Source: Mucilaginibacter terrae | GTDB lineage: Bacteria > Bacteroidota > Bacteroidia > Sphingobacteriales > Sphingobacteriaceae | Length of the DNA stretch: 64,000 nt | Assembly: GCF_031951985.1 (NCBI RefSeq) | Contig: NZ_JAVLVU010000001.1 | Location: 124,001-188,000 of the forward strand | Direction: 5' to 3' | Shown here: piece by piece, positions 30,178-57,086 of the stretch | Position numbering within the stretch: position 1 is the first letter of the stretch | Layout: each line of letters starts with the position of its first letter | Notes under the pieces: generated by a model | The model's input: only the letters and a program-made list of their open reading frames with translations | Database searches by the model: none | What the model was told of the DNA's origin: nothing | Position numbers and translations under genes: made by a program

Positions 30178-30181
30178 ATCC

Positions 30182-31192
30182 ATGATTGTATACTTTGATA
30201 AAGCAAACTATATACAATATTTAAAAACAGTTGATGACGTTAGTGAAGGTCCAGATACTTTGCGAATGCTTAAAAATCAATTGAGTGTTCACCTTAACTT
30301 TAAGATTGAGGATTTAGATGAGTATGAGCAAATTTTACTTGAAGAATTTCAATCAGGTGTCTCAGCTCACTTTAAATTTACATTGGGCGATGATAGAATC
30401 GTTCGCCCGATTAAGAAAGAAAATTTGCCTTCAAAAAATGGTATTTACTTACTAGATGACGCAAATCTTAGCTTGTTAAAAAAACAACATACTGTAGTTG
30501 CTGGAGGCGTTGGTGAAGAAATAGGCGCACTGAATACTCTAATAATTGACATTGATTATTCTTTTCATTCAGAGAGGGTTATAGGAAAGGACATTACAAA
30601 CACAAATCATCTCAATATTTTGGGTTTGCCTTTTTCAACCCTTGTCGTAGTTGATAGATATATATTCAAAGGACCGGAGGTAGGTGGGAATTTAGGATTA
30701 TACCAATACAATCTAGATTTAATACTAAAAAACGCGTTCACAAATAAACAAGGTTATTCACGGCTCATCTTCATATACCAAGTAAATACTAAGGTCGCCA
30801 ACTCTAGCCCTTACTATGACGAGGGCCCGGATTTGGAAAAGCTTACAACGAAAATCAAAAAAGTTACGCATAAACATTGCCCTGCACCAGAGCTTTATTT
30901 TATCGGTGTTCCGTCAGGGGTCATTGATGATGAACATGATAGATTTATCATTTCAAACTATCTAAGAATAAAGAGCGGAGATACTTTAATTTATTTTGAC
31001 TCATCCGGTGTAGTAAAGACAAATAGCAAAACCGTTGACTTTTACTCATTGGGCAACAAAAATTATAGGGATGTTAATGAAATCATTCTAAACAAGATAT
31101 CAAGAATTATTGAAGAAACACTTGATAAACATCCAAGATATTCGAAGGTGCCACACGGGACTCAATCAAAAGAAGTTATTAATTTTAATTAA
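30182..31192 (+). CDS. Unknown partner of the AAA ATPase
   Basis: 336 aa, not recognised. It has a central beta-rich region with VVAGGVGEEIGALNTLIIDID (about 105-125), DRYIFKGPE at 158-166 and HDRFIISNYLRIKSGD at 252-267. Paired Asp-Arg and His-Asp-Arg motifs in such segments can mark a nuclease-like active site, but this is only suggestive. It begins 4 bp after the ATPase stop and is followed by hsdM after 38 bp. Occupying the place of a restriction effector in an operon without HsdR, it is a candidate effector. Confidence 0.6.
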   Translation: MIVYFDKANYIQYLKTVDDVSEGPDTLRMLKNQLSVHLNFKIEDLDEYEQILLEEFQSGVSAHFKFTLGDDRIVRPIKKENLPSKNGIYLLDDANLSLLKKQHTVVAGGVGEEIGALNTLIIDIDYSFHSERVIGKDITNTNHLNILGLPFSTLVVVDRYIFKGPEVGGNLGLYQYNLDLILKNAFTNKQGYSRLIFIYQVNTKVANSSPYYDEGPDLEKLTTKIKKVTHKHCPAPELYFIGVPSGVIDDEHDRFIISNYLRIKSGDTLIYFDSSGVVKTNSKTVDFYSLGNKNYRDVNEIILNKISRIIEETLDKHPRYSKVPHGTQSKEVINFN

Positions 31193-31230
31193 AATATGAA
31201 AGTGCATTGGTGTTCTAATGCGATAAGGTA

Positions 31231-33018
31231 ATGAAGAGACTAACGCCAAAGGTAGATGTATCATTCATCTTTCAAATTACTGATAGGGTTTTATGGAATG
31301 TTTTCAAAAAAAATGAAATTGGAGATGTCCTACTTCCATTTATCGTGATTAGAAGGTTAGATTGTATGTTAGAACCGGTAAACACTAAGGTGCACGATAA
31401 ATATGATAATATCAAAAACTTTGAGAGCAACGAAAATATTGACTTTCAACTTAGAAAAGCCGCAGGAGGACTGCAGTTTTACAATGTATCAAAACATACG
31501 CTTGAATCCCTCAGGGCATTTCCAAGAAATATAGAGATTGACTTTATAAATTACTTAGATGGATTTAATCTAGAAGTTAGAGAAATACTAGAAAACTTTC
31601 AATTCGAGAAAATAATAGGGAGACTCATTAAAAATAAATTGCTATATCAAATGATTGATGCAATTTGTCAGGTTGATTTACATTTAAATAATGTTGACAA
31701 CCATACAATGGGGTACATTTTCGAAGAACTTATTCGAATATCAAATGAACAAAGCAATGAAACCGCTGGTGAGCATTTTACTCCCAGAGACGTAATTGAT
31801 CTTATGGTTAACATTGTATTCAGTACCGAAAAACGCAGACTAACCCAGCCAGGAACACAAATTTCTATTTATGATCCTACCATGGGTACAGGCGGAATGG
31901 TCAATCTCGCAAAGAAATATATTCTCGAAGAAATTTGTTCCTCGTCTATTAATAAACCTGAGGTAAATACATATGGACAGGAAATTAATGAACAATCATA
32001 TGCCATAGCGAAATCCGAAGCCTTAATTACTGGTGAAAATTCGGATAATATTCGCCATGGAAATACCTTTACTGAAGATCGCTTCCAAAATAAATTCTTT
32101 GATTACATATTTGCTAATCCGCCTTATGGTGTCACTTGGAGTAAAGATGCTGATTTCATTAGAAATGAAAGCGTAATGCACTCCGGAAGATTTTTTGCTG
32201 GGTTGCCCTCAATAAGTGATGGACAACTGTTATTTATTCAACATATGATTAGCAAAATGTCTCCAGCTGGATGTCGAATGGCAGTTGTTACAAACGCATC
32301 ACCGCTTTTCAGTGGCAACGCGGGTAGCGGTGAAAGCGATATAAGGAAGTGGTTGATTACTAATGACTTTCTTGAATGTATAATTGCTTTGCCGAAAGAT
32401 TTATTCTACAATACGGGCATCAATACTTATTTATGGTTTTTTAATAATAAAAAATCTAAAATACGCGAAGGTAAAGTTCAGCTCATCAACGCAAATGTCG
32501 CTGATAATTCAGATACTAATGTGATTGGATTCTCTAGACCAGAAAAGAGAAGCTTAGGCAACAAGCGAAATCGAATCGAACCTTTCCATGTTGAGAGGCT
32601 GTTGGAGATTTATTCCAAATTTGAAGAGGACGAGCATTGTAAAATTTACAATAATGAATTCTTTGGTTATTACCAAATTGTTGTCGAGCAGCCGAAGTAT
32701 AGTGTTACTGGTGACAAGGTAATTGAAAAAAATGGCCGGATAAAGGCAGATCCGAAAAAGCGAATAAAAGAGATTGTGCCTTTAAATACTGATATAGATA
32801 ATTACGTAAAAAAAGAAATATTGCCATATTTTCCAGATGCTTACATTGATTATGATCGAACAAGAATTGGATATGAAATCAACTTTACCAAGTATTTTTA
32901 TAAATTTAAACAAGTAAGGCCGTCAAAAGAAATTAAAGCGGAGATTGAAGCAATTGAGTTTGGCAATAAAGATCAGGCTGGAATTCAAGAATTATTGAGG
33001 AATTTACTCAAAGCATAA
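31231..33018 (+). CDS. hsdM: Type I modification methyltransferase (HsdM)
   Basis: 595 aa. The N-terminal helical HsdM domain runs to about residue 170. The N6-adenine methyltransferase domain has the SAM motif DPTMGTGG (215-222) and the catalytic NPPY (296-299), preceded by ETAGEHFTPRDVIDLM. A C-terminal extension continues to residue 595. The stop overlaps the hsdS start as TAATG. The gene codes for a complete-looking enzyme. There is no HsdR gene on either side: upstream are the ATPase and the 336-aa gene, downstream only hsdS and then converging genes. Confidence 0.92.
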   Translation: MKRLTPKVDVSFIFQITDRVLWNVFKKNEIGDVLLPFIVIRRLDCMLEPVNTKVHDKYDNIKNFESNENIDFQLRKAAGGLQFYNVSKHTLESLRAFPRNIEIDFINYLDGFNLEVREILENFQFEKIIGRLIKNKLLYQMIDAICQVDLHLNNVDNHTMGYIFEELIRISNEQSNETAGEHFTPRDVIDLMVNIVFSTEKRRLTQPGTQISIYDPTMGTGGMVNLAKKYILEEICSSSINKPEVNTYGQEINEQSYAIAKSEALITGENSDNIRHGNTFTEDRFQNKFFDYIFANPPYGVTWSKDADFIRNESVMHSGRFFAGLPSISDGQLLFIQHMISKMSPAGCRMAVVTNASPLFSGNAGSGESDIRKWLITNDFLECIIALPKDLFYNTGINTYLWFFNNKKSKIREGKVQLINANVADNSDTNVIGFSRPEKRSLGNKRNRIEPFHVERLLEIYSKFEEDEHCKIYNNEFFGYYQIVVEQPKYSVTGDKVIEKNGRIKADPKKRIKEIVPLNTDIDNYVKKEILPYFPDAYIDYDRTRIGYEINFTKYFYKFKQVRPSKEIKAEIEAIEFGNKDQAGIQELLRNLLKA

Positions 33019-34307
33019 TGGTAGATAACAATAATATAATTACTTCAAATCGATCTCCAAGATTTCGTCAAGATTGGAAATTTGCTAAATTGAAAAATGT
33101 GGCGCAGGTAAATTTTAGTACAGTAGACCGTCATGAATATGATAGTGAAAATTCCGTTGCTGTTTGCCACTATCCTCAAGCTTATAAAAATGAAATAATT
33201 AGCCAATCAACTATTTTGTCTTCAGGGACCTGTACTGACAATGAAAAAAGTCAGTATTTATTAAAAAGAGGTAGAATAATTTTAACAAAAGATTCCGAGA
33301 GTGCTGAAGATATTGGTATTGCAACTTACATTAGTGAAGATATACCTAATGCTGTTTGCGGATATCACTTGGCATTGATTGTTCCTGATGAAAACCTTGT
33401 TGATCCACTATTCTTATTTTGGTACTTAAAATCCCAAAAGGTAAGGTATTACTTTACGATAAACGCTAATGGCGTAACAAGATTTGGATTAAGTAAATCG
33501 GCAATTCAAAACGTTGAAGTTCCGCTTCCGCCGTTAGAAGAACAAAAGTTTTTAGGTACTTACCTATTAGAAAAAATAAAAAACTGTGACGAGATTCTTA
33601 AAGGTAAAGAGACAATTATTTCTTTACTAAGGGAAAAAAAGTTTTCATTGATAACTGAAGCTGTAACAAAAGGACTTAACAAAAATGTGTTACTGAAAGA
33701 AAGCAGCCAAGCTTGGCTAGGCCGAGTACCTAAACATTGGAACCTGAAGAAAAATAAGTTCCTTTTTAAGATAAAGAAGAATATCGCGGGAGAATTAGGG
33801 TATAACGTCTTGTCTGTCACTCAAAAAGGAATTAAAATTAAGAATATCAATAGTAATAAAGGTCAAATCTCATTTGACTATAGCAAATACCAATTAGTTG
33901 AACCTGGAGATTTTATTATGAATCATATGGATTTACTAACTGGATATATTGATATTTCCAAATGGAGTGGCGTGACAAGTCCTGATTATCGAGTCTTTTA
34001 TGTAATTGATAACAATTCTTGTAACAAATACTACTTATATCTCTTCCAGCTTTGTTACATAAATAAAATCTTTTATGGGTTAGGCCAGGGGGTATCACAA
34101 CTTGGAAGATGGCGAATGCCCAGCCATGAATTCAATGATTTTATTGTACCAAGTCCTCCACTTTTTGAGCAAGTTGAAATTGTAGAATACCTCGATAACC
34201 TTACTGGCAACATTGATGCTTTAATAGTTCAGGAATTAGCGACAATTGATTTACTAAATGAGTACCGCACTTCAATTATAAGCGAATCGTATTCACGAAA
34301 TGATTAA
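33018..34307 (+). CDS. hsdS: Type I specificity subunit (HsdS)
   Basis: 429 aa with the two-domain plan: a first target-recognition domain (about 15-150), a conserved helical spacer with PLPPLEEQKFLGTYL (about 173-187), a second TRD starting WLGRVPKHWNLKK (about 232), and a closing spacer VPSPPLFEQVEIVEYL. It overlaps hsdM and should determine the bipartite methylation site. The two TRDs are unlike those of the right ICE HsdS. It ends 18 bp before the converging HEPN gene, with no obvious terminator. Confidence 0.9.
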   Translation: MVDNNNIITSNRSPRFRQDWKFAKLKNVAQVNFSTVDRHEYDSENSVAVCHYPQAYKNEIISQSTILSSGTCTDNEKSQYLLKRGRIILTKDSESAEDIGIATYISEDIPNAVCGYHLALIVPDENLVDPLFLFWYLKSQKVRYYFTINANGVTRFGLSKSAIQNVEVPLPPLEEQKFLGTYLLEKIKNCDEILKGKETIISLLREKKFSLITEAVTKGLNKNVLLKESSQAWLGRVPKHWNLKKNKFLFKIKKNIAGELGYNVLSVTQKGIKIKNINSNKGQISFDYSKYQLVEPGDFIMNHMDLLTGYIDISKWSGVTSPDYRVFYVIDNNSCNKYYLYLFQLCYINKIFYGLGQGVSQLGRWRMPSHEFNDFIVPSPPLFEQVEIVEYLDNLTGNIDALIVQELATIDLLNEYRTSIISESYSRND

Positions 34308-34325: not shown

Positions 34326-34994
34326 TCAGGCTTTGAAGCTCAGATCATGAATAAACCCATTTTTCAATCGTTCGAAAACCTCGTCCATTAATAATTCAAC
34401 AATGGCTATTGCCCTAGATACGTCATCCGTGGTAACAACTATTGCATTGTTGCCATGGGCAATATCATTTCTTATTTTTAATAAAAATCTATCCAATTCA
34501 ATTGCAATTGAATATCGCGGTCTGAGATAGTCAGGAATTGGTGTAAGATTGAAACTTGCTAGTATATCATTTAGGACATCAAAGCCCACATTGCTTTTTG
34601 TGTCCACGATTGGACTTATTTGAAAAGATTCACTATTAATTATTTGTTGCAATTTAGAAATCATTGCTACTTTCTTATTAAGCTCTGATGGGTATTTTTT
34701 TAGCTGCTTAACTCTTAATTCTAAATTGTAAATCTTAAGGGAATCGCAATATTCTTCCATTCGAAGATTCAGCCTATTTATTTCCCTTACATATGTTTGA
34801 AATGTGGTTTGAATAAATCCCTCCCAAACAGAATAAATGATAGGAAAGGAATAGTTAAGGAAATATTGTTGGTCATTGGCGTTTAAGGAGTTTCGTAGAT
34901 GAAATGTTTTCGTTTGTAAAAGAAGCTCCTTTCTTTCAATGATATCAGCTTGAATGTCGTTTTCCAAATTGGAAGCGATTCCATTACTATTCAT
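34326..34994 (-). CDS. HEPN-domain protein (MAE_28990-like)
   Basis: About 222 aa from ATG 34994 (MNSNGIASN), which overlaps the DUF262 stop by 8 nt; a start at 35057 would overlap it by 71. The alpha-helical protein carries RNDIAHG near its C-terminus, the Rx4H pattern of HEPN ribonucleases, and an early YSVWEGFIQTTF segment typical of the MAE_28990/MAE_18760 group. HEPN RNases are common toxic effectors. With the DUF262 gene directly upstream it likely forms a two-gene defence pair. Confidence 0.75.
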   Translation of the reverse strand: MNSNGIASNLENDIQADIIERKELLLQTKTFHLRNSLNANDQQYFLNYSFPIIYSVWEGFIQTTFQTYVREINRLNLRMEEYCDSLKIYNLELRVKQLKKYPSELNKKVAMISKLQQIINSESFQISPIVDTKSNVGFDVLNDILASFNLTPIPDYLRPRYSIAIELDRFLLKIRNDIAHGNNAIVVTTDDVSRAIAIVELLMDEVFERLKNGFIHDLSFKA

Positions 34995-36063
34995 TACTAA
35001 AAATTCGTTTGGCTTCTTTAATTCTATTTTGAATTCTTGTAATCTGATTGTTGCCACCCTTACGAGAAAACTTTAATAAAACCGCGTCTTGCCGCACCTC
35101 ATTGTCAATTTTTGACAAGATAACTTCAGGAGATTGAGTTTTGTAAAAAGCCAAATTTTCAGCAACACCTAAGGTAATTACGTCATATAAAGAAGTCGCA
35201 AACCGGCCATCCCTTTGACGGAAAATCTTGTTTTTAAGTGGCGACAACAAACTGAAAACCTCCATGAATACATTTCTGTATCGTCTATAATCAAACTCAT
35301 TATTTTCTAGCGCCGACTTCATAAACTCAGTCATGTGATGTGCAATGCTTATTCGAATATTGCCACTATTGTTGAAAAGAGATATAAATCTTAATGCTAA
35401 CTCTTCGTTGTATAATTGTTCGTATTGCTCGTAATCTAAGCTGATTAAATCTTTAAAAATTTTCTCATTGGCCAATTCTTTCAAAAAATCGTTAAATTTT
35501 GACGAAATGTCTCTATAAATACAATTTCTTATTTCTTGAGGCGTTAATGGTGATCCACCTGTGTTTAACCGATTAAATAGTTCGAATCTCATGTCATAAC
35601 TACTGTTCCATCTTAAAATCTCAACCCTACAAGTAGCCCTTTTAATATTTCTTTGTAGTGCAATTGGCAGTGTCAGGTAATCAAATCCTTCTAAAGTTTC
35701 AACACGGTCCCCAGATGTTAATACCCAATTATTTTTTTTCCTTATACCTTCATCCGTCGTATTGAGAAGCCCAAAAAAAGAAAGGACTGTTGATACTCTT
35801 TGTAAGCCGTCCACTAATTCCCAAACGCCATCACCATCTTCAGCGACGAAAATCGGTGGAATTGGAATGCCAAGCAATATAGACTCGATAAAACGGCTTC
35901 TTTGTTCTTCATGCCAGCGAAAGTATCTTTGAAATGCTGGTTTGATAATAAGTTCTTTACGTTCATATAAACTGATTATTTCTCCAAATGACAAATCAAG
36001 CCTATCAGTATTAAGAAGATTCCTTTGTTCTTCGATTTGTTTTTTTAAATTGTCTGGGTTCAT
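34987..36063 (-). CDS. DUF262 (GmrS-like) protein
   Basis: 358 aa. The DUF262 ParB-like fold is marked by IKPAFQRYFRWHEEQRSRFI (about 37-56), IPIPPIFV and ELVDGLQRVSTVLSFF, with the DGxQR motif. It lacks a C-terminal DUF1524 nuclease, so it probably depends on the adjacent HEPN protein for an effector. DUF262 domains bind or hydrolyse nucleotides in GmrSD-type modified-DNA restriction. The GmrSD-like gene begins 29 bp upstream on the same strand, so three genes may be co-transcribed. Confidence 0.85.
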   Translation of the reverse strand: MNPDNLKKQIEEQRNLLNTDRLDLSFGEIISLYERKELIIKPAFQRYFRWHEEQRSRFIESILLGIPIPPIFVAEDGDGVWELVDGLQRVSTVLSFFGLLNTTDEGIRKKNNWVLTSGDRVETLEGFDYLTLPIALQRNIKRATCRVEILRWNSSYDMRFELFNRLNTGGSPLTPQEIRNCIYRDISSKFNDFLKELANEKIFKDLISLDYEQYEQLYNEELALRFISLFNNSGNIRISIAHHMTEFMKSALENNEFDYRRYRNVFMEVFSLLSPLKNKIFRQRDGRFATSLYDVITLGVAENLAFYKTQSPEVILSKIDNEVRQDAVLLKFSRKGGNNQITRIQNRIKEAKRIFSNE

Positions 36064-36092
36064 TGGATATTTAATTGGGTAGTAACATTTTT

Positions 36093-37979
36093 TTATACCG
36101 TCTTTTCAATGTAATCAGTATAATTCATACTGCTTTGGTTTAAATTTTTTTTAATTTCTTTTAAAGTCTTTAAACTGTTACCTGAATAATAATCTTTCAA
36201 AAGTTTATTAACTCTAAAGTGGTTAAAATGAACGGTTTCAATATTCCAATCTTTATAGGTAATAAAAATATAATTAGTATTGGCTCTATTTTCGATTGCG
36301 CCAGCATAACGTACCGACTTTTGTGCGTAGGGTAAGTTACTTAGAGAGGAATTTTTTTTTCTGTCAACTAAAATGATATTTCCAAGTTTGTGAAGCCATT
36401 GCTTGTGATCCTCTTCACGAATGTCCCAAGAAGTTCCCTCGATTTTTTGAGGTATTAGGTGTTCTACAGAAGAAATTGTTTTATTAAAGTATAATTGAGT
36501 ATGGAAATTACTTAATAATAAATCTAGTTTTAAAAGCAAGTATCGAGTTTTATTGATTTTTGTACCAGAAAAGCTTCCCCATTTTTCTTTATCAAACAAT
36601 TCATAAAGTTTCTCCATATCAAGAGCTGTAGATGCTTTCTCATCTTGATATTCGTATTTTAATATATCGCTATTTAAAAATTCATCTGCCGCCTGTTTTG
36701 GTAAATGAACGGATTTTGTAAGATCGTCCATTTTGCGCAACATCATAAAGATTCTTGACTGCAACCCTCTATGTCCTAAGAGCCATGAAGCTGAGCATAA
36801 ATTATCCAATTTCAATATAAATTCTACAATACGGTATTCACCAAAACATTCTCTATAATGCATAAGCGGCGCAATGTATGTGCTACCGAATGTTGAAGTT
36901 AAGATGTAATTGAGGTTTGAAAAGAAGCATCCAGTATCATCACTTTGAAAATTATTGCTTGTAACCGCTTCAAAGTGCTTTATATACCGGCCTATAAAAT
37001 CAAATGTATCACTGCCTTTTTGAATGACCTTTCGTTCATACATAAAATTAAAAGCCTTAGTTAGACTTAAATTGTCATCGCTTCTATATTTCATCTTTAT
37101 AAAAACCATCGCCCATAAGAACTCATCAAATGATTTGTATGGGGCATCAATGCTACTTTCATAAGTTTCCCATAGTTTTGCGTATTCTTTCCTTTGTTTC
37201 TCATCAACAATTACTCTCAGATTTTGAGCTCTAAGAATATCACTAACTTGTAATTGAAGACCTCGGCTATTCAATACAGTAAATAAATTATAAGCGTCGT
37301 CTAAATTATCGGGTGTGGCGAGATATAAGGCCAAAACTTTTAATGACAGATAATTATAAAAATCATATAAATACTTTTGAATTGCTTCCTCACCGTCTAA
37401 ATCATCGAACTTCCTTAACCACCATTTTCTCAAAGATAGAATTGCATTAGCCATATTTTTTATCGATGTACTCGATTCTTTATTGACCGCAATTTCTTCA
37501 ATAAATGCTATGTTATCAGAAGTACTTCCTTTAATTATTATATGGTTGTCGATAAAATTTTTGTCATACCTGATTTGAAATTCAATCCGGCTTCTTTTAG
37601 GTATCCCATCAAATTGATCTTCCTCTTGAAGCATTCTTTCTTGAACTTTGTCATGTAATTGTTTACTAGTTGAAAAATCTCTTATAACAGCTTGTAACAA
37701 ATACAATGTTATAAATCGTTGTTGTCCATCTAAAATGTCTTGGCAAACGTATTCGATATCTCCTTCCTTAACTTTCTTGGTGTTCCAAATCATACATCCC
37801 AAAAAGTATTCTTTGTTTTTATCGTGCTCCATTGCTGAAGTGATATCATCTAAAAGCGCTGAAATTTGATCTTCACCCCATACATAAGGGCGTTGATATT
37901 CAGGAATATTATAAAAGCAATGAGACGCAAAAATTTCTTTTATATATTTTTTACCTGTGTCTAAAGTGTAGTTGGACAT
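36093..37979 (-). CDS. GmrSD-like protein (DUF262-DUF1524)
   Basis: About 628 aa from ATG 37979 (MSNYTLDTGKKYI); an upstream ATG at 38048 adds residues not expected in the family. The N-terminal DUF262 domain shows FYNIPEYQRPYVWGEDQI and DILDGQQRFITLYLL. The C-terminal DUF1524 HNH-like nuclease shows EHLIPQ, then LGNIILVD and NSSLSNLPYAQK. Fused GmrSD enzymes (type IV restriction, also BrxU) cut DNA bearing modified bases. It is the first gene after the integrase on this strand and leads the DUF262-HEPN pair. Confidence 0.85.
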   Translation of the reverse strand: MSNYTLDTGKKYIKEIFASHCFYNIPEYQRPYVWGEDQISALLDDITSAMEHDKNKEYFLGCMIWNTKKVKEGDIEYVCQDILDGQQRFITLYLLQAVIRDFSTSKQLHDKVQERMLQEEDQFDGIPKRSRIEFQIRYDKNFIDNHIIIKGSTSDNIAFIEEIAVNKESSTSIKNMANAILSLRKWWLRKFDDLDGEEAIQKYLYDFYNYLSLKVLALYLATPDNLDDAYNLFTVLNSRGLQLQVSDILRAQNLRVIVDEKQRKEYAKLWETYESSIDAPYKSFDEFLWAMVFIKMKYRSDDNLSLTKAFNFMYERKVIQKGSDTFDFIGRYIKHFEAVTSNNFQSDDTGCFFSNLNYILTSTFGSTYIAPLMHYRECFGEYRIVEFILKLDNLCSASWLLGHRGLQSRIFMMLRKMDDLTKSVHLPKQAADEFLNSDILKYEYQDEKASTALDMEKLYELFDKEKWGSFSGTKINKTRYLLLKLDLLLSNFHTQLYFNKTISSVEHLIPQKIEGTSWDIREEDHKQWLHKLGNIILVDRKKNSSLSNLPYAQKSVRYAGAIENRANTNYIFITYKDWNIETVHFNHFRVNKLLKDYYSGNSLKTLKEIKKNLNQSSMNYTDYIEKTV

Positions 37980-38074
37980 TGTAATAAGATTAATTTGTTT
38001 AAAATAAAGAGAATGATTGACATCACAAAAGATCTCAATCATTTCCATATAAAATAGTAAAGTTGTTCTATTAA

Positions 38075-46245: not shown

Positions 46246-46319
46246 GCGCCTATAGCTCAGTCGGTTAGAGTAGAAGACTCATAATCTTTTGGTCCCTGGT
46301 TCGAGCCCAGGTGGGCGCA
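46246..46319 (+). tRNA. tRNA with CAT anticodon (tRNA-Met or tRNA-Ile2)
   Basis: 74 nt. Acceptor GCGCCTA pairs with TGGGCGC, with A73. D-arm AGCTCAGTCGGTTAGAGTA; anticodon stem GAAGA/TCTTT with loop CTCATAA; T-arm CCTGGTTCGAGCCCAGG. CAT is read as Met by default; lysidine-modified tRNA-Ile2 is possible. The 3' half is the attachment core of the right ICE. Confidence 0.93.
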
Positions 46320-46323
46320 CAAA

Positions 46324-46591: not shown

Positions 46592-47812
46592 ATGAAAACA
46601 TCACAATCATTCAGAGTGCACTTTGTAGTTAGAGCCTATAAAGCGAAAAATGGTAAAGCTCCGCTCTACGCGGCAGTTACAGTAAATAGGGAAAAATGCC
46701 TCATTGGATTGAAAGAAAGTGTTCCAATAGAGATGTGGGATGTTGACAAGGGATACCCAAAGGGAACTCGGGATCAGGTCAAAAAGCTCTCAACATTCCT
46801 TGAAGAGGTACGCTTGAAGTTGGGAAATTGCTATAAGGAATTGCAATTGAAAGGAAAATTCATTGACACAAAATCGATCAAGAGCCTTTTCCTCGGTGAG
46901 AAGGAAGAAGCCTTTACGCTTAATAGCCTAATGAGCTACCATAATGAAACGGCTACATCTGACCTGAAATGGAGTACGCTTAAGCATTACTTTGTTACCC
47001 AGCGGTACCTAAAAAAGTTCATTGAAGAGCATTATAAGGCTACTGACATTTACCTACGTGAGCTTAATTACAAGTTTGTGAAAGACTTCGAAGTTTTCTT
47101 ACGTAACCACAAACCGAAAGATCATCAAAAGCCGCTTAATAACAATGGAGTGATGAAACACATCATCCGGTTAAAGAAGATGACGAACCTGGCCTTAAAT
47201 CTCCACTGGATAGATGCAGACCCATTCGCCACTTATAAACTTAAAATTCAAAAAGTAAATAGAGAGCAATTGTCGGAAGTTGAACTAAAAGCTATAGAAG
47301 AAAAAAAGTTTGGAATTGAGCGTTTGGAAATGGTGAGAGACATGTTCGTCTTTTGCTGCTATACGGGCCTATCCTACGTGGATGTAAGCAATCTTGAGCC
47401 CGAGCATATAGTAATGGGTGCTGACGGCGACCGATGGATTAGGACATGCCGTGAAAAGACGCTTATACCTGTGATAGTGCCGTTACTGCCCAAAGCGTTA
47501 GCTATTCTTGATAAGTATAAAGATAATGAGCGGGCTTTATACGACGGCCGAGTGTTTCCAAAAATATCTAATCAAAAAGTAAACAGCTACCTAAAGGAGA
47601 TTGCTGACCGATGTGACATTATTAAGAATGTGACTTTTCATATCGCTAGGCATACTTTTGCTACCACCGTAACATTATCTAATGGTGTGCCTATTGAAAC
47701 GGTAAGCAAGATTTTAGGTCATACTAAAATTACGACCACTCAGATTTATGCTAAGGTTGTTGAACGGAAGTTAAAAGAAGACATGAAGATGCTTCAAAGC
47801 AAATTATCTTGA
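46592..47812 (+). CDS. Tyrosine integrase, IntDOT-like (right ICE)
   Basis: 406 aa (MKTSQSFRVHF). Catalytic residues: REKT Lys, HIARHTF, LGHTKI His and TQIYAKV Tyr; TGLSYVD has Ser in place of the first Arg, as in IntDOT. From about residue 165 onward it is nearly identical to the left ICE integrase at 38075, while the first 110 residues (arm-binding domain) differ strongly. This agrees with identical core sites but different arm repeats. It reads away from the tRNA. Confidence 0.93.
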   Translation: MKTSQSFRVHFVVRAYKAKNGKAPLYAAVTVNREKCLIGLKESVPIEMWDVDKGYPKGTRDQVKKLSTFLEEVRLKLGNCYKELQLKGKFIDTKSIKSLFLGEKEEAFTLNSLMSYHNETATSDLKWSTLKHYFVTQRYLKKFIEEHYKATDIYLRELNYKFVKDFEVFLRNHKPKDHQKPLNNNGVMKHIIRLKKMTNLALNLHWIDADPFATYKLKIQKVNREQLSEVELKAIEEKKFGIERLEMVRDMFVFCCYTGLSYVDVSNLEPEHIVMGADGDRWIRTCREKTLIPVIVPLLPKALAILDKYKDNERALYDGRVFPKISNQKVNSYLKEIADRCDIIKNVTFHIARHTFATTVTLSNGVPIETVSKILGHTKITTTQIYAKVVERKLKEDMKMLQSKLS

Positions 47813-49472: not shown

Positions 49473-50594
49473 ATGAGCATACCAACTTACATACCGGTCT
49501 TTAGATTACGTCAAGAGGAAAAGAAAGTATTGACCTCATTCAATTTCGGTGCTGATATTTTTCCATATGTTGAAATTTTCAAGGAATTTGAACGGTTACC
49601 ACCGAAGCCTAAGGCTGGAAAACCCAAAAAAAAGCCGCGTGAACCTAAACATTTTAATGAGATTTATATCCCAACGCTTAATAGTATCAATAGCGAAAAA
49701 GTTTTTGTTGACCTGCCTGTTCATTTGCAGCAGTCAAGGAAAATGAAAAAAGAGGTGCTTGAGTTTCTTCGTGGTGTTGTTGGAAACAGGAAGGTGCGGA
49801 CAGATTACCTGTTAAGCTTAAGTATTCTGCGGAACAAGGTCATACCTGTGATTAGCACCTATTCTCAATTAACCGGTGAGCCAAATTCGATTAAGTTGCA
49901 GGAAGCTGATCTGCGCGTCGTTTATCCAATTCTAGCTTTTAGAACGTCTGAAAAAACATTTACCAATGACATGAATCAGATTAGTTCAGTTGCTCAAGCA
50001 GGTGATTTTTTAATCGTCGATTTGGAAGACTACAATCTTTCAGACAAGGAAGATATGGCAACGATTCAATTCATGATCGATTTCTTAATGGCGTTTGATC
50101 AATGTCACGTCGTATTGCTGCGCAACAGTATCCTTAACAGCATCAAAAACTTTGAATTGGGGCATTGTGAAAGGATTAACGTCATTGATAACAGCTTAAT
50201 GAATCGCTATGACAAACTTGGAGCGAACTGCTTTGCAGATTACGCAGGCATCAAAAAGGACAAAGTAGAAGATGGCGGAGCTGTTAGTCCAGGATTTATT
50301 TTTTACGATGCTGTACAAAATAATTTTTTCGGTTTTAAAGGATCTGAAAAACGTGAGTTGAAAGACTTTGAGAACATTATAATTCCGGCTGTTCTCGCAT
50401 CAGATGCGGCTGCAAGAATGCAAAGCGCAGAATCCGACTATCTTTCTGTTGAAAATAAAGGCTGGAAAATGATTGAAGATATTTGGGATGAAGAAGAAAG
50501 CGGCAAGAATCAAGCAAAATTCAAACGGATATCAATGGAACATTATTTACATTGTATTAGAACAAAGATTGAGGACGGTTATTTTCTACTTTAG
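49473..50594 (+). CDS. Beta-family (sce7725-related) protein
   Basis: 373 aa. It begins IPTYIPVFRLRQEEKKVL and has FPYVEIF, the opening pattern of the Beta protein family first named from T4. A predicted TIM-barrel-like body follows, with DLRVVYPILAFRTSEKTF, GDFLIVDLEDYNLSDKED and GANCFADYAGI. Function is unknown; homologues often accompany sce7726-type nucleases and XRE regulators in defence loci. It starts 19 bp after the HigA-IrrE gene and its stop overlaps the stop of the converging nuclease gene by 4 bp. Confidence 0.7.
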   Translation: MSIPTYIPVFRLRQEEKKVLTSFNFGADIFPYVEIFKEFERLPPKPKAGKPKKKPREPKHFNEIYIPTLNSINSEKVFVDLPVHLQQSRKMKKEVLEFLRGVVGNRKVRTDYLLSLSILRNKVIPVISTYSQLTGEPNSIKLQEADLRVVYPILAFRTSEKTFTNDMNQISSVAQAGDFLIVDLEDYNLSDKEDMATIQFMIDFLMAFDQCHVVLLRNSILNSIKNFELGHCERINVIDNSLMNRYDKLGANCFADYAGIKKDKVEDGGAVSPGFIFYDAVQNNFFGFKGSEKRELKDFENIIIPAVLASDAAARMQSAESDYLSVENKGWKMIEDIWDEEESGKNQAKFKRISMEHYLHCIRTKIEDGYFLL

Positions 50595-51364
50595 CTGTAG
50601 ATATGTACCGGTTTGATGTTTTTGTTAAAAAAGAACTGAATATCAATAGGTAGAATGTCATTGGAATGTTCTACAACAAACTCCCACCTGCTACGGTAGC
50701 GCTCTTTAAGTGCAAGTTTAAATAAGTCATTTATAGTTGTGATATTATTGCTGATCAAAATATCTTCTTGGTTGCCCATACCGAAAAATTGCACTAATTC
50801 CTTTTTGGTTAGCAATGACAATTGAACTGAAGGATTGAGATGCTGATTAAACTTCGGTTTACGATAAAAGCTGTGCTGATCTTTTTCTACTGTGATGATC
50901 CCAAAATTCTCTGGTATTATGCCAATGCATCTCTTAAGATGACGCTCATGAATGACCAAGTTATTGAACTCAAAAGCTGATAAATAGTCAACGGATTGTT
51001 TTGCCAACTTATCTAAGTTATCCAGATTTGATTTAATCTCGAAACTGGTGGTAAAACCATTAATGGTCAGAAAGTCTACTCGGCTCCTTTTAACCTTTAT
51101 CTCATAAGCCGCCACGACGTTTTTATCGTGGAATTCCTTAAATAATTCATACTTAAGCACCTGTTCACCATCATAGCTATGTAAGATCAGATCGTTGATC
51201 TTTTGATGCAATTCCAATTTGCAGCATTTGCTAAAATTGTTTTTGGGATAGATCATTAAAAGCAATTCCCGCAACTTTGGTCCATAGTGCAAGGTACTGT
51301 AACCTTTTACTACTTCCTTAACTGCCTTATAATCAATTGCTGTTTGTTGGCTTCTTTTTCCCAT
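50591..51364 (-). CDS. sce7726-family PD-(D/E)xK nuclease-like protein
   Basis: 257 aa. VKRSRVDFLTINGFTTSFEI followed by KS gives Asp97 and Glu109-x-Lys111; LAKQSVDYLSA adds Gln123-x3-Tyr127. These are the D/ExK and QxxxY motifs of RecB-like nucleases. The protein matches the sce7726 pattern, whose members sit beside sce7725/Beta proteins. It faces the Beta gene tail to tail. Probably a DNA nuclease effector, unproven. Confidence 0.75.
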   Translation of the reverse strand: MGKRSQQTAIDYKAVKEVVKGYSTLHYGPKLRELLLMIYPKNNFSKCCKLELHQKINDLILHSYDGEQVLKYELFKEFHDKNVVAAYEIKVKRSRVDFLTINGFTTSFEIKSNLDNLDKLAKQSVDYLSAFEFNNLVIHERHLKRCIGIIPENFGIITVEKDQHSFYRKPKFNQHLNPSVQLSLLTKKELVQFFGMGNQEDILISNNITTINDLFKLALKERYRSRWEFVVEHSNDILPIDIQFFFNKNIKPVHIYS

Positions 51365-51562: not shown

Positions 51563-52372
51563 TTAAGCTTCAAGCAGCTGTTGAATCCAAGGATGATTTT
51601 CAGCACGTTGACCCCGTAATAGATACCTCATTTCACCACTATAAGGCGCTTCGCGACTTATAGTGGTGTGAATACGCTTGGCTACTTTTTTAAAACCTGG
51701 TTTTCTTGTTTCATCAACTTGGGAAATATCAAAAAGATTCTTCGCTTCCATGATGTCGGCTATTAGGCTAACTGCAATACCATGCCGCCTAACGCAAGTA
51801 GCATCTCTATCTAAATGGAAAATTTCAATTGATGCATTAACTCTTGACAAATCTAACTGGACTTCTGTCGCACAGCATGGTTTTCCGTTTTCTTGCTGGC
51901 ACCCTAATAACTCACAGTCCTCGATTACGCAAGGGTCTAATAACTTGGGTCCTTCATTATCTATGGATGCTTGTTGATAAACCCTTCTTGCTTCGTCAAG
52001 CAGTGGAAACTTGTCAGCTTTTCCTCCTGCGGTTCCAAATTCTACATCTATTCGTTTACTGTTGCAAAATGTGCATGCCAGACGAAAGTTAGACTTATCA
52101 AGTGCGAGCCATCGATATCCAGTATGATTTAATGCTTCAAATACCCTGTTTTTAGGACGATAGTGATCTACTGCATTATCATTACGGTCAACGGGCGATT
52201 CGCAATACCAGCATTTGAAATGGGATAATTGAAGCATGGCAGGCTTAAGTTCTCTCCAAATATCTCCATAATCATCCGGGGCTGCTCCACCAGCTATTTG
52301 AGCTGCTGCGACAGCTGATCTTGCCAGCCACCCATCTGGCATTCTCAAAGAGTCAATATTAATGTATCTCAT
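51563..52372 (-). CDS. HNH nuclease, TIGR02646/PtuB-like
   Basis: 269 aa. CWYCES (54-59), the HNH start NAVDHYRPKN (66-75) and CTFCNSKR (100-107) form the zinc-cysteine/HNH core. These features match the TIGR02646/PtuB class, which acts with an ABC-type ATPase in Septu and retron-linked systems to cut nucleic acid. It overlaps the ATPase stop by 4 bp and closes the four-gene operon HsdM-HsdS-ATPase-HNH. Confidence 0.85.
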   Translation of the reverse strand: MRYINIDSLRMPDGWLARSAVAAAQIAGGAAPDDYGDIWRELKPAMLQLSHFKCWYCESPVDRNDNAVDHYRPKNRVFEALNHTGYRWLALDKSNFRLACTFCNSKRIDVEFGTAGGKADKFPLLDEARRVYQQASIDNEGPKLLDPCVIEDCELLGCQQENGKPCCATEVQLDLSRVNASIEIFHLDRDATCVRRHGIAVSLIADIMEAKNLFDISQVDETRKPGFKKVAKRIHTTISREAPYSGEMRYLLRGQRAENHPWIQQLLEA

Positions 52373-54081
52373 ATTTGCTGATTGTCATTGTCAGCCAATA
52401 AATCGTCTATTAACTCTTTCGCCAGCTGTTCGCGTTCCTGTCTATTCAAACTCACAGTGCTCTTTGATAAGGCCTCTGTTTCTTCAGTTTTGAAACGCTT
52501 TGTTAGTGCGCGATGTCTAATTCTTAAATAACGGCTATATTCATCATCGGGATGAAAAAATCTAAAGCCTAACTTGTTCAGTTGATCATTAAGTTGATCA
52601 AGCTCTTGTTGTTCGCTTAGTGTGAGATTCTTTTTCGCACCTAAAATTCTTTGTTTTTCCAAAGTCTGTTGCGTCGATTGATCTAAAGTTGATGCTATAC
52701 CAAACATGTCACTTGCGACAATCGCAGCATATCCCATTCCTCGCGGGTCATCTTCAGGGTAGGTTGCAATTACTTTTCTGTTCTGTTCTACATCATCAAT
52801 ATGCAAAATTTGAACTTGCTCTTTAACCAACTCTGCAATTGCTAATGGATTATGAGTTGTTAATAAAATGTGACTATTAGTATTTCCTTTTGACGACCTT
52901 GTAATCACATTTTTTAAGTAATTCAAATAATCTACACTCCATCGAGGATTTAAATGTGTATCTGGTTCATCAAGTAGAAAAAGGCTTTCTTCGTCTGCGG
53001 TAAACTTTAATAATCCTAAAACAGTAAGCAATTGTTGCTCGCCCTCACTTAACTCCCGAAAGGTTACCGTTTGATCACTTTTTTTCAATTTTACCTTTAT
53101 TCTAACCTCGTTGATTAGTTGAGATACATATGTGCTTTCAAGATCTCTAAAAAAAGCAGCTGGAGATTGATCACCGACTAATTTTCGAAGTGAAGCAATG
53201 TCTTTGACAAATAAATATTTAAACTGCAACGTTTCCTTATTCCATAGAGAGACTGGAACTCTTCTCGTTGTCTCAATTGGGGCTAAAGAAATATCAAGTA
53301 GTTTTGATAAAAATTTACTTACTACGCCTTTTGCTCCCCAAAACCTAAGATCACCATCATCTCGCGGTTTCCACGGTGGCTGTCTAAGTACAAAAAGAAC
53401 TGATTCTAATCCATCTATTGGATCTAATCCAAGATTATCTCTTAAAAAATCGGCAATTAGATCATCATCGCTTTCTCTTTCAATCAAAAAGGCAAGTAAG
53501 ACGAACTGGCTATGTACTGGTAATGCATAAAACAATCTTTTGTTACCTGGATCTTCACCTTTTCTTAACTTGTCATCATACCATTCCAAATAAGGTAGAA
53601 AAATTTCATGCATCCGCTGGCTATCTCCAGAGTAGTAACTAAATACATACCGTGGAAGAGCCTTGGTATCGTCAAGAAATTTATTGATGGTTATAATATG
53701 ATCTCTTTTAATGTCATCTGTGAAATACTCGCTTATTGATGCGTTATTCATAAGAGACTTTTCAGCAATATGAATTAAAAACTTATTGCGAATTCTGTCA
53801 GGATCATGGTCAATTACTACTGCTCTTTCGTCTTTGTCTGTGCCTATCCAATAGGAAAGATTGAAGGCAAAATCAATTTTCGGATTTTTTTTAGGACTAA
53901 TAAACTCCCTAAAAATGATCGCTAATGCCTCAAGAACATTTGATTTTCCTGTTCCGTTCCAGCCTATTACAACTGTTACCCAATGATTTTGATCAAAATC
54001 AATTGTTATGTCTTTTAAGTTTTTAAATTGATGGCTTGGACTCTTAGACGAGGAACCAATTGTGATTTTATCTAATCGCAT
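52369..54081 (-). CDS. ABC/AAA-type ATPase, PtuA-like
   Basis: 570 aa. Walker A GWNGTGKS (40-47), a signature LSEGEQQ (344-350), Walker B LFLLDEPDTHLNP (367-379) and the H-loop TTHNP (408-412). A long helical middle and an unusual C-terminal extension (about 440-570, coiled and charged, with LRIRHRALTKRF) follow. It is the PtuA-type ATPase of Septu-like systems and holds or controls the HNH partner. It starts 10 bp after hsdS, in the same operon. Confidence 0.85.
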   Translation of the reverse strand: MRLDKITIGSSSKSPSHQFKNLKDITIDFDQNHWVTVVIGWNGTGKSNVLEALAIIFREFISPKKNPKIDFAFNLSYWIGTDKDERAVVIDHDPDRIRNKFLIHIAEKSLMNNASISEYFTDDIKRDHIITINKFLDDTKALPRYVFSYYSGDSQRMHEIFLPYLEWYDDKLRKGEDPGNKRLFYALPVHSQFVLLAFLIERESDDDLIADFLRDNLGLDPIDGLESVLFVLRQPPWKPRDDGDLRFWGAKGVVSKFLSKLLDISLAPIETTRRVPVSLWNKETLQFKYLFVKDIASLRKLVGDQSPAAFFRDLESTYVSQLINEVRIKVKLKKSDQTVTFRELSEGEQQLLTVLGLLKFTADEESLFLLDEPDTHLNPRWSVDYLNYLKNVITRSSKGNTNSHILLTTHNPLAIAELVKEQVQILHIDDVEQNRKVIATYPEDDPRGMGYAAIVASDMFGIASTLDQSTQQTLEKQRILGAKKNLTLSEQQELDQLNDQLNKLGFRFFHPDDEYSRYLRIRHRALTKRFKTEETEALSKSTVSLNRQEREQLAKELIDDLLADNDNQQI

Positions 54082-54091
54082 TCAAGTAGTA

Positions 54092-55675
54092 TTAATGTGA
54101 TAATTTAATGCGATCAAAAAGTTTCCTACCTTCAGAATCCAATACTGGTTGTACAGCCAACATACCTTTTTTGTCTAAAGCTCTTAGCTCAGCATATAAT
54201 GGCTCAATTTCTTCAGTAGTTGAGTCCAGCCTGATGCCACATCGTTGAAATGCTTCTTGAGCAGCAAGCCATTCGTCAGCTTCTGATAAAACATCTAAAA
54301 GTTTTTTCATAATATTCGCTGTGCTTTTGCCCGTTTGTTTGGGCTTTCTTATGATAATTTTATTTGCATTTATATCATGCAGTTTAATTTGATCTAAAAT
54401 ATCAATTGCGGTGTGTTCGTGAGTAACATTTCTGGTAAGTTCTCCACTAAATGCTTTTGAGTAAAAGGTGGTTTCGAGACTGCTAAGTTTTCCTGAAGCG
54501 CCATCAACGCCATTTATTATATTTATGATACGGTTAAAGTTCTTTTCAATGATAGCGATGATTTCCCGTTGCTCTTCTACTGATGGTAACGGAAGAATAA
54601 ATGTTTTTAGCTTTGTCGCATTAATATTTGACTGGCTAATTCCGTCGCTTTTAACGCGTCTGCAAAACTCTCTTCCCTGTGGGCTGTTCAGGCAAATATT
54701 TAAATAATCAGGAAGCATAACATCACTACAACGCACTCTTATCAAATAACCAGCGTAAATAGCTTCTCTTTCACCTTTATATACAGCAGTTTTCCCAACC
54801 AATTCAGGACTATTCGTTCGGTTGAACAAAACATCACCGGCTTTTAATATATACTTTTTTATCTCCTGATTGTCGTTAGTATAAACTAAGTCACTCCAAT
54901 CAATAGCTCCGTCTTGTATATTACCCATCCGTAAAACTGGAATTTTACCAATTCTAGATGACTTAGATGATGTCCCATAAGTAATTTCTGAAATTATACT
55001 GCCAAGTTGAACTCTTTCAGGTGTGAATTTTTTGTGTTTAAATCTCCATTCTTCCGTTAACACTCCCGAATAAGCATTCTCAAGAACTTTGGCCTTCAAG
55101 GTTTCCGCTAATTGTACGGCAGCATTTAAATGTGATCGCGTTCTTTGAAGTTTACTATTCAGTCCTGATAGGTAGTTCACAATCACAGCCTGTTCCTCTA
55201 ATGGCGCCAATGGAAAACTAATAGTAGATGCTTTAAAGCCAGAAAGTTCTTTAAAGGTAGTACCACTTGAAATACTCTCTAAGTAGTTCTTCGAGAATAA
55301 AAGATAATATCTGACATATTCGGGATTAATAGAGCCTTTTAAAACAAAAGTCTTAAATCCTTGGCTTGTACACAATTCATTTGCAGCGATAACACAATAA
55401 CCAACAGGTGCTCTTGAGCTTAAAAGCACAGAACCTCTTGGTACAATTTTGGCCGAACTATTAGCATAGCCTTTCTCACTTAGACTTCTTTTACCCTTTC
55501 GTATAAAGGTTTCTGAATACCCGGTTAGATCCGCAGGTGTAATCCATGGTATTCCATTCATTTCAAAATTGGATCCATCTCCGGTTGGTGGCGTTCCTCC
55601 GCCAATGACTTCAGCTAATTCTCCAAGCCTCACCCAACACCAATCATCGGGTATGATCCACCGCATCTCAGTCAT
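54092..55675 (-). CDS. hsdS: Type I specificity subunit with C-terminal extension (HsdS)
   Basis: 527 aa. The usual two TRDs: the first starts IPDDWCWVRLGELAEVIGGG, with a spacer FPLAPLEEQAVIVNYL near residue 155; the second starts after EWRFKHKKF, with spacer LPLPSVEEQREIIAIIEKNF. The HsdS pattern ends at AFSGEL near residue 415. About 110 further residues follow, containing KPKQTGKSTANIMKKLLDVL and EADEWLAAQEAFQRCGI, and ending in a winged-helix-like segment. This tail is not needed for an ordinary HsdS and may contact the ATPase or HNH. It overlaps hsdM by 8 nt. Confidence 0.9.
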   Translation of the reverse strand: MTEMRWIIPDDWCWVRLGELAEVIGGGTPPTGDGSNFEMNGIPWITPADLTGYSETFIRKGKRSLSEKGYANSSAKIVPRGSVLLSSRAPVGYCVIAANELCTSQGFKTFVLKGSINPEYVRYYLLFSKNYLESISSGTTFKELSGFKASTISFPLAPLEEQAVIVNYLSGLNSKLQRTRSHLNAAVQLAETLKAKVLENAYSGVLTEEWRFKHKKFTPERVQLGSIISEITYGTSSKSSRIGKIPVLRMGNIQDGAIDWSDLVYTNDNQEIKKYILKAGDVLFNRTNSPELVGKTAVYKGEREAIYAGYLIRVRCSDVMLPDYLNICLNSPQGREFCRRVKSDGISQSNINATKLKTFILPLPSVEEQREIIAIIEKNFNRIINIINGVDGASGKLSSLETTFYSKAFSGELTRNVTHEHTAIDILDQIKLHDINANKIIIRKPKQTGKSTANIMKKLLDVLSEADEWLAAQEAFQRCGIRLDSTTEEIEPLYAELRALDKKGMLAVQPVLDSEGRKLFDRIKLSH

Positions 55676-57086
55676 CGTTACCCTTTGATTCTAAAGCTTC
55701 GAAATCCTCTGTTAAATCTTTTATTTCACTCATTGCTTCCCGCAAATGATCAAAAATAGCAGCGGCAATTTCAGTCGTATCAAATACCTGATCTTCTATT
55801 GCATTCTCTGCTTTTAACCATGAAATATCAAGACTATCATCATTTTCACGAATTTCATCTCGCGTAAAGGAACGCCATCGCCCTTCATTTCCTTGATCAA
55901 CTCGCTCGCTGTTACCTTTAGGATCCCTTCCAAATGCAATTTCGAAGGCTGCAAAGTCCTCTGTAGAAAGAGGCCTCCTCTTTCCAAATCTAACGGGTAA
56001 AGTCCTCATATCGTAAAACCAGACATTACTAGTATTTGCATTACCTGATTTCCCTTTTGTGAAAAACAAAACATTTGTTTTCACTCCTTGGCTATAAAAT
56101 ATACCGACAGGTAATCTCAAAATAGTATGAAGGTTGCATTTTGCCATTAACTCCTGACGAATGGTTTTTCCAACACCTGCCTCAAACAATACATTATCTG
56201 GAAGAACGACGGCAGCCCGTCCGCCAGGTTTTAGGGTCGAGATGATATGCTGTAAAAATGCAAGTTGTTTGTTACTTGTAAAATGAATTATATCTTGTCT
56301 TTTTTGCCTTGCGCTACCGGCTTTAGCCCCAAATGGAGGATTTGCTAAAACAACGTCGGCGCTTGAAAGTAATCTTGAATCATCCGTTAATGCGTCTCCT
56401 AAGATGATTGATGCACTTAATTGATGTAAGAATACGTTCATCAAACAAATCCTATAAGTTGACTTCTCAATCTCAACTCCCTCGTATTTGGGTGGATTCT
56501 CGTTGTAAACATTTAAACTATTATTATCACGTATATACTTATCAGCAGATATTAAAAATCCACCGCTACCAACAGCTGGATCTTGAATTAGTTCGCCAGC
56601 CTTAGGGCATATAAGTTTTACGATAGTATCTACGAGAGCTCTCGGAGTAAAATATTGGCCAGCACCAGACCTTGCGTCTTGGGAATTTTTTGAAAGCAGG
56701 CCTTCATAAATATCGCCCATGCCATCTTGGGTTATCGAATGCCAATCAATTTTTGCAATTCCATCGATTACAGCTTTCAGATTTTCCGAATGCGAAAATA
56801 CGGTTGTCGGAAATGCATAGATTTTTCTAATTATATCAACACTAGCATGTCCCCCTAAAAACGTAAGTATATCCCGATACTCAGTCAATAAATCATCACC
56901 TTTATAACCGATTAATTTTCCCCATCGACAATGGTCGGGTAACAATTCCTCAGTTTTGTTTTCTTCCGCAATCTTTAAAAATAATAGATATGTCAACTCA
57001 GAAATGTACTCATGATAGCTAATGCCATCACCCCTTAGTATGTGACAAAGGTTCCATATCTTTTGAATTATATTCTCATTGTTCAT
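55668..57086 (-). CDS. hsdM: Type I modification methyltransferase (HsdM)
   Basis: 472 aa. HsdM N-domain (1-135), SAM motif DPAVGSGGF (169-177) and catalytic NPPF (249-252), preceded by GAGQYFTPRALVDTI. First gene of the operon, it runs divergently from the mob operon, with about 190 bp between the starts. Its sequence differs widely from the left ICE HsdM, so the two were acquired independently. No hsdR follows or precedes. Confidence 0.92.
   Translation of the reverse strand: MNNENIIQKIWNLCHILRGDGISYHEYISELTYLLFLKIAEENKTEELLPDHCRWGKLIGYKGDDLLTEYRDILTFLGGHASVDIIRKIYAFPTTVFSHSENLKAVIDGIAKIDWHSITQDGMGDIYEGLLSKNSQDARSGAGQYFTPRALVDTIVKLICPKAGELIQDPAVGSGGFLISADKYIRDNNSLNVYNENPPKYEGVEIEKSTYRICLMNVFLHQLSASIILGDALTDDSRLLSSADVVLANPPFGAKAGSARQKRQDIIHFTSNKQLAFLQHIISTLKPGGRAAVVLPDNVLFEAGVGKTIRQELMAKCNLHTILRLPVGIFYSQGVKTNVLFFTKGKSGNANTSNVWFYDMRTLPVRFGKRRPLSTEDFAAFEIAFGRDPKGNSERVDQGNEGRWRSFTRDEIRENDDSLDISWLKAENAIEDQVFDTTEIAAAIFDHLREAMSEIKDLTEDFEALESKGNDD

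Follow-up and report, generated by a model that had tools for sequence, protein, structure and literature searches.

A four-gene operon joining type I HsdM and HsdS to a Septu-like ATPase–HNH pair suggests a methylase-coupled Septu system

What do a type I methylase and its specificity subunit serve when no restriction subunit, HsdR, accompanies them, and what controls a Septu-like nuclease pair encoded in the same operon? Both questions are raised by a minus-strand operon of Mucilaginibacter terrae at positions 51563–57086 of a 64,000-nucleotide stretch of its genome (the window), which encodes an HsdM-like methylase, an HsdS-like specificity subunit, a PtuA-like ABC ATPase and a PtuB-like HNH protein. 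The original prediction, made from the letters of the window, was that HsdMS is coupled to the ATPase–HNH pair and that this pair replaces HsdR as effector. The answer that we hold to be probable, if far from assured, is a type I methylase-coupled Septu system in which HsdMS is the sensor of self and non-self and a winged-helix tail of HsdS docks PtuA to license PtuB.

Results

The four genes, their coordinates and their strand are exactly as first described, with junctions of an 8-nt overlap, a 10-bp gap and a 4-nt overlap. Their products and the parts referred to below are as follows (aa, amino acids; TRD, target recognition domain).

55668–57086, minus strand: HsdM-like N6-adenine methylase, 472 aa (N6_Mtase 260 bits, HsdM_N; DPAxGxGGF and NPPF motifs intact)
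54092–55675, minus strand: HsdS-like specificity subunit, 527 aa (Methylase_S 122 bits; TRD1, helix 159–203, TRD2, helix 366–408, linker, winged-helix tail)
54092–54331, minus strand: C-terminal winged-helix domain of HsdS, residues 449–527 (fold H-(E)-H-H-E-E in structure models)
52369–54081, minus strand: PtuA-like ABC ATPase, 570 aa (PADLOC PtuA1 872 bits; AAA_21/AAA_15)
53941–53964, minus strand: Walker A motif of PtuA, residues 40–47 (by motif position and conservation)
51563–52372, minus strand: PtuB-like HNH protein, 269 aa (PADLOC PtuB1 305 bits; Pfam HNH 20.7 bits, slightly below cut-off)

The first pair has the hallmarks of type I restriction–modification (RM), namely an HsdM with HsdM_N and N6_Mtase and an HsdS with two target domains, and the second those of Septu, a PtuA ABC ATPase with Walker A and B motifs adjoining a PtuB HNH protein. 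The HNH protein had been labelled TIGR02646/PtuB-like; the PtuB half of that label holds, whereas the TIGR02646 half is loose (25 bits against an NCBIfam cut-off of 52). Catalytic residues are conserved in all three enzymes: HsdM D169, G173, G176 and N249–F252 show no variation among 81 relatives, the PtuA Walker A G40xNGxGKS47, signature LSEGEQ, Walker B LLDEP and H410 are kept in 82–84 of 84, and C54, H70 and N95 of the HNH protein are kept in 84 of 84.

No HsdR flanks the operon, as had been claimed, and none was recognisable elsewhere in the host genome, a single contig of 5,485,925 bp, in searches with HSDR_N, EcoEI_R_C and SWI2_SNF2. HSDR_N (PF04313) was dropped as the sole probe, being too insensitive for the EcoEI-type HsdR of related loci, and the other two were added because the neighbouring HsdR proteins of relatives are of the EcoEI_R_C type and weak on HSDR_N. 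Across the host genome HSDR_N and EcoEI_R_C (PF08463) each gave 0 matches; SWI2_SNF2 gave one, a 507-aa open reading frame (ORF) judged too short for HsdR. A matching HsdR elsewhere in the genome, named beforehand as a finding that would tell against the prediction, was thus looked for and not found, and PtuAB is the sole candidate effector for the operon in its host. HSDR_N and EcoEI_R_C were likewise both absent from eight of the 22 tested genomes with HsdR-less loci (G000, the host, and G398, G399, G400, G406, G408, G410 and G411), where SWI2_SNF2 found only ORFs of 495–860 aa, or none. The host also carries a second HsdM-HsdS-PtuA-HNH operon, again without HsdR, at positions 3885157–3890625 of contig C1 (locus L015:7158-12626), whose ATPase is 38–43% identical.

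We then surveyed the 80 closest PtuA relatives among GTDB representatives, picked by PtuA similarity alone, together with a Bacteroidota sample; counting the window and the phylum sample and excluding the duplicate L023 gave 86 loci. The relatives come from Pseudomonadota, Myxococcota, Cyanobacteria, Chloroflexota, Cloacimonadota, Bacteroidota, one archaeon and others. HsdM, HsdS, PtuA and HNH are all present in 81 of the 86, that is, in 81 of the 81 with enough contig, the remaining five being cut by contig ends. PtuA matched in 6 of 395 Bacteroidota genomes, always within an operon of all four genes, and L019 alone among these has an upstream HsdR. HsdS lies immediately 5' of PtuA, with a median gap of 2 nt, and the genes for PtuA and HNH overlap (median −4 nt), while HsdM stands either before HsdS or after HNH, with 8 layout changes on the PtuA tree.

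HsdR, by comparison, comes and goes. It is present in 44 of the 76 scorable loci, where it is of the EcoEI_R_C type, and absent from 32; tblastn with diverse HsdR seeds revealed no hidden HsdR in the HsdR-less loci save short fragments in L063 and L097. We counted at least 16 gains or losses on supported branches of the PtuA tree and 19 in all, on a quick tree in which long-branch rows are placed uncertainly. Because the four genes occur in all complete loci while HsdR switches so often, PtuAB is the constant effector within the surveyed clade and HsdR an optional second one. The proposed coupling of HsdMS to the ATPase–HNH pair is therefore supported, whereas the claim that the pair replaces HsdR stands for the HsdR-less subset and fails as a general rule.

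These counts bear on two other explanations. In the first, the window operon and the other HsdR-less loci would be type I loci in decay, with HsdMS left as an orphan methylase and PtuAB as a bystander. The missing HsdR is what such decay would leave, but the catalytic motifs are all intact, dN/dS is far below 1 in the HsdR-less pairs with usable dS (about 0.03–0.11 for PtuA, HNH and HsdM in L068/L069 and L082/L087), and the host genome holds two independent copies of the operon; we consider this explanation largely refuted and very improbable. In the second, type I operons, which are known hotspots of recombination, would merely host a Septu pair that works independently of HsdMS. There are published cases of defence genes lodged inside other systems, such as Septu within Hma or an AAA-ATPase pair flanked by hsdS and hsdR (PMC12255303, PMC8565338). 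A hotspot predicts mixed contents, however, and the order HsdS-PtuA-HNH does not vary across the several bacterial phyla and the one archaeon, with HsdM on either side and HsdR optional. Nor was the PtuAB pair ever seen standing alone within the clade, an outcome that had also been set against the prediction in advance.

The HsdS tail weighs further against mere embedding. Beyond its second conserved helix the window HsdS continues for about 120 residues, of which some 30–40 are common to ordinary HsdS and about 80 are specific to the tail. An AlphaFold model of the protein (mean predicted local distance difference test score, pLDDT, of 90) shows, after a pair of normal target domains with their helices, a linker without order at residues 441–450 and a winged helix at 449–527, in agreement with the winged-helix look first noted; modelled alone, the tail has a pLDDT of 72. 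A PDB profile search with the tail gave nothing convincing, and Foldseek returned generic winged helices only, none with E < 0.001.

Tabulating the tail against the ATPase and HNH genes had been put forward as a test, with an equal frequency in ordinary HsdRMS loci as the result that would speak against a link. Of 79 HsdS proteins from the surveyed PtuAB loci, 74 match the tail model over its winged-helix part. Three HsdS proteins in 349 Pseudomonadota genomes carry the complete tail, and each is encoded in a PtuAB locus, the remaining matches to the model being the linker common to ordinary HsdS or unrelated proteins. In about 45 EcoEI-type HsdR loci (40 in an HsdR-anchored sample and several more) HsdS stops after the common linker, the sole exception being a weak tail-like match without PtuA in L142. 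The tail is thus essentially confined to loci with the ATPase–HNH pair. In two distant relatives whose HsdS has no tail, HsdM (L020:11880-14204 and L021:1874-3985) bears an N-terminal extension with an ECKAEH motif and a PD-(D/E)XK nuclease-like look.

Across pairs of loci, which are not independent of one another, the identity of the tail tracks that of PtuA best (Spearman 0.82), ahead of HNH (0.57), the neighbouring HsdS helix CR2 (0.53), HsdM (0.46) and the two TRDs (0.12 and 0.18). Where PtuA is 90–98% identical, the target domains have been exchanged and share about 20% identity, against 83% for the tail; in L056/L059 the HNH protein has been exchanged (53%) at 90% identity in PtuA and 97% in the tail. 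Such covariation, a sequence-level signal, supports but does not prove contact between tail and PtuA, and it suggests that the reader of the DNA mark directly controls the nuclease. An HsdS carrying a PtuAB-specific domain that varies with PtuA is hard to square with an unlinked, embedded pair, which we regard as improbable.

TRD exchange also occurs in HsdR-less loci, in L068/L069 and, for the second TRD, in L082 and L083 compared with L087, a sign that PtuAB itself may depend on DNA specificity. This bears on a third alternative, in which PtuAB would guard restriction: intact HsdMS would silence PtuAB, and phage anti-restriction (DNA mimics or Stp-like peptides) or damage to HsdMS would free it to cleave tRNA and abort infection, as with PrrC/EcoprrI or PARIS, the trigger not being DNA methylation itself. 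Both PrrC, which is encoded within a type I locus, and PARIS have been described as guardians of RM (PMC12707154). PtuAB of retron-Eco7, under the control of another sensor, is a toxin that the retron neutralises and that cleaves tRNA-Tyr (PMC11555353), as does PtuAB of Septu EcB88 (PMC13096335); that many loci keep HsdR also fits a guard. Yet a guard of restriction should vanish with HsdR, and PtuAB persists through its many losses or gains. Because TRD exchange continues without HsdR, we prefer a model in which unmethylated sites license PtuAB to one in which it purely guards HsdR, and we regard the guard model as rather unlikely.

The operon is cargo of an integrative element of about 54.7 kb, as the 3' end of a tRNA-Met gene recurs that far downstream. 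Its left boundary and integrase lie within the window:

46298–46320, plus strand: attL, the 3' end of tRNA-Met; its direct repeat, attR, lies some 54.7 kb further downstream, outside the window, and closes the element at about 100987
46592–47812, plus strand: tyrosine integrase of the element (Phage_integrase match)

An integrase beside the L018 operon is 52% identical to this one. Conserved genes of the element resemble mobilisation or transfer genes, a likeness not family-tested. The PtuA-type ATPase was found in five plasmid records and in no phage genome. Operons of L031 (Comamonas) and L048 (Luteimonas) are near-identical (PtuA 99.5%), suggesting recent horizontal transfer. An HsdR-less four-gene operon (L190:5853-11552) lies on an island of the seawater Escherichia coli MB06233, the one match among 5,426 complete E. 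coli genomes.

Other genes of interest lie nearby. Next to the operon are convergent genes of the Beta-protein (PF14350) and sce7726 families (49473–51364). Another HsdR-less operon, on the plus strand of the window (28663–34307), encodes an AAA_15 (OLD/AriA-like) ATPase, a 336-aa protein without a family match, HsdM and HsdS. A second defence cargo, a HEPN protein and two GmrSD-type genes (34326–38048, minus strand), lies beside two integrases and a tRNA-Arg gene. Elsewhere in the same genome, L022:6374-13886 encodes a methylase, a specificity protein and a PglW/MAD6-like kinase with a NERD domain, a MADS- or BREX-like locus. Further defence-type genes lie in or beside some loci (L050, L061, L062, L065 and L077; L049 and L056; L097), namely a YhcG/DUF1016 nuclease, Mrr and Fic.

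Discussion

The mechanism that we propose would run as follows. An HsdM2-HsdS complex would methylate its own target on the host chromosome as a self mark and scan DNA, while a dimer of the PtuA ATPase, held or recruited by the winged-helix tail of HsdS, would link the PtuB HNH nuclease to the complex. Once HsdMS met an unmethylated target, or was disturbed by a phage, the PtuA ATPase would change state, and PtuB would then be licensed to cut nucleic acid and stop the infection. PtuAB would be the only effector in HsdR-less loci, the window operon among them; wherever HsdR is present, PtuAB would share the sensor with it as a second effector.

The gating by methylation and the substrate, DNA or tRNA, are inferred, and the PtuB sequence does not discriminate between its DNA-cutting and tRNA-cutting relatives. 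Unlike the tRNA-cleaving systems cited above, the Septu system of E. coli ATCC 25922 reportedly targets DNA (cited in PMC11555353). A variant that we consider unlikely is a methylation-gated suicide system, in which HsdMS would be both DNA sensor and antitoxin, holding PtuAB through the winged helix until unmethylated foreign DNA frees it to cleave tRNA. Such a type I 'restriction' system would kill through tRNA cleavage and have no need of HsdR.

Several points weigh against methylase-coupled licensing. L018, L019, L020, L021 and L100 keep PtuAB although their HsdS has no detectable tail. The tail is encoded beside PtuA, so linkage may explain part of the covariation. The survey was anchored on PtuA, so the frequency of such HsdM and HsdS without PtuAB lies outside its reach, and most of the HsdR-less genomes are drafts. 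Contact between tail and PtuA and a defence phenotype are themselves predictions.

Were this licensing correct, widespread loci reported as 'Septu type I' plus 'type I RM' would be one system that annotation tools split, and many HsdR-less type I loci would be explained. A reader of DNA marks would control a Septu effector through a dedicated HsdS domain, which would give PtuAB the defined trigger that accounts of Septu have long lacked.

The general theme of ABC ATPase–nuclease pairs in restriction contexts is already known: ABC ATPases pair with nucleases in RM-like systems (PMC12839542). There are also reports of RptR-linked ATPase pairs between hsdS and hsdR (PMC12255303). In the literature covered, which did not extend to Krishnan et al. 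2020 (a likely prior description), the MADS paper or Li et al. 2024, we found no account of an HsdM-HsdS-PtuAB unit, the HsdS winged helix or an optional HsdR. That these ATPases occur in a restriction context had been recognised earlier, as is evident from the name given to TIGR04435, restriction system-associated AAA family ATPase. This family is a sister ATPase clade, with a member (780 bits) in an operon of HsdR, HsdM, HsdS, ATPase and an HNH-like protein at L181; the window ATPase does not belong to it (137.6 bits against a cut-off of 300). In the sister systems L138, L164 and L181 the genes after that for a type I HsdS encode another kind of ABC ATPase (a TIGR04435 member in L181) and a partner of 351–386 aa that is weakly HNH/PDC-M01B-like; the HsdS proteins of L138 and L181 have other C-terminal extensions.

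The closest known systems each share part of this arrangement. Septu has the same ATPase and HNH families, and the solved PtuA (8ee4) and PtuB (8ee7) are among the best PDB sequence matches, but canonical Septu has two genes whereas the window clade is never seen without HsdM and HsdS. Retron I-A (Ec78/Eco7; 'Septu type II' in PADLOC) similarly places PtuAB under a separate sensor module; here, by contrast, the sensor is a DNA methylase–specificity complex, and the NCBIfam cut-offs for retron PtuA and PtuB are missed. None of the ten proteins annotated in the window around the operon matched a reverse transcriptase family, msr-msd not having been searched. PrrC-EcoprrI and PARIS also tie an ABC ATPase with nuclease activity to restriction, PrrC being nested in a type I locus, but the window ATPase is PtuA-type with an HNH partner, and often there is no HsdR to guard; membership among PrrC-type guardians, defined by PrrC in an hsdRMS locus, was rejected on the ATPase type and the absent HsdR. 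The methylation-associated defence system (MADS) joins HsdM-like and HsdS-like proteins with an AAA ATPase, but its eight-gene set is absent from the window operon, and membership was rejected at 93 bits against an equivalog cut-off of 720 for MAD2, 31 against 420 for MAD3 and 35 against 400 for MAD5. With type I RM of the EcoEI/EcoAI kind the system shares HsdM, HsdS and, where present, an EcoEI_R_C-type HsdR, and differs from it in that the window operon has no HsdR and its HsdS bears an extra winged helix.

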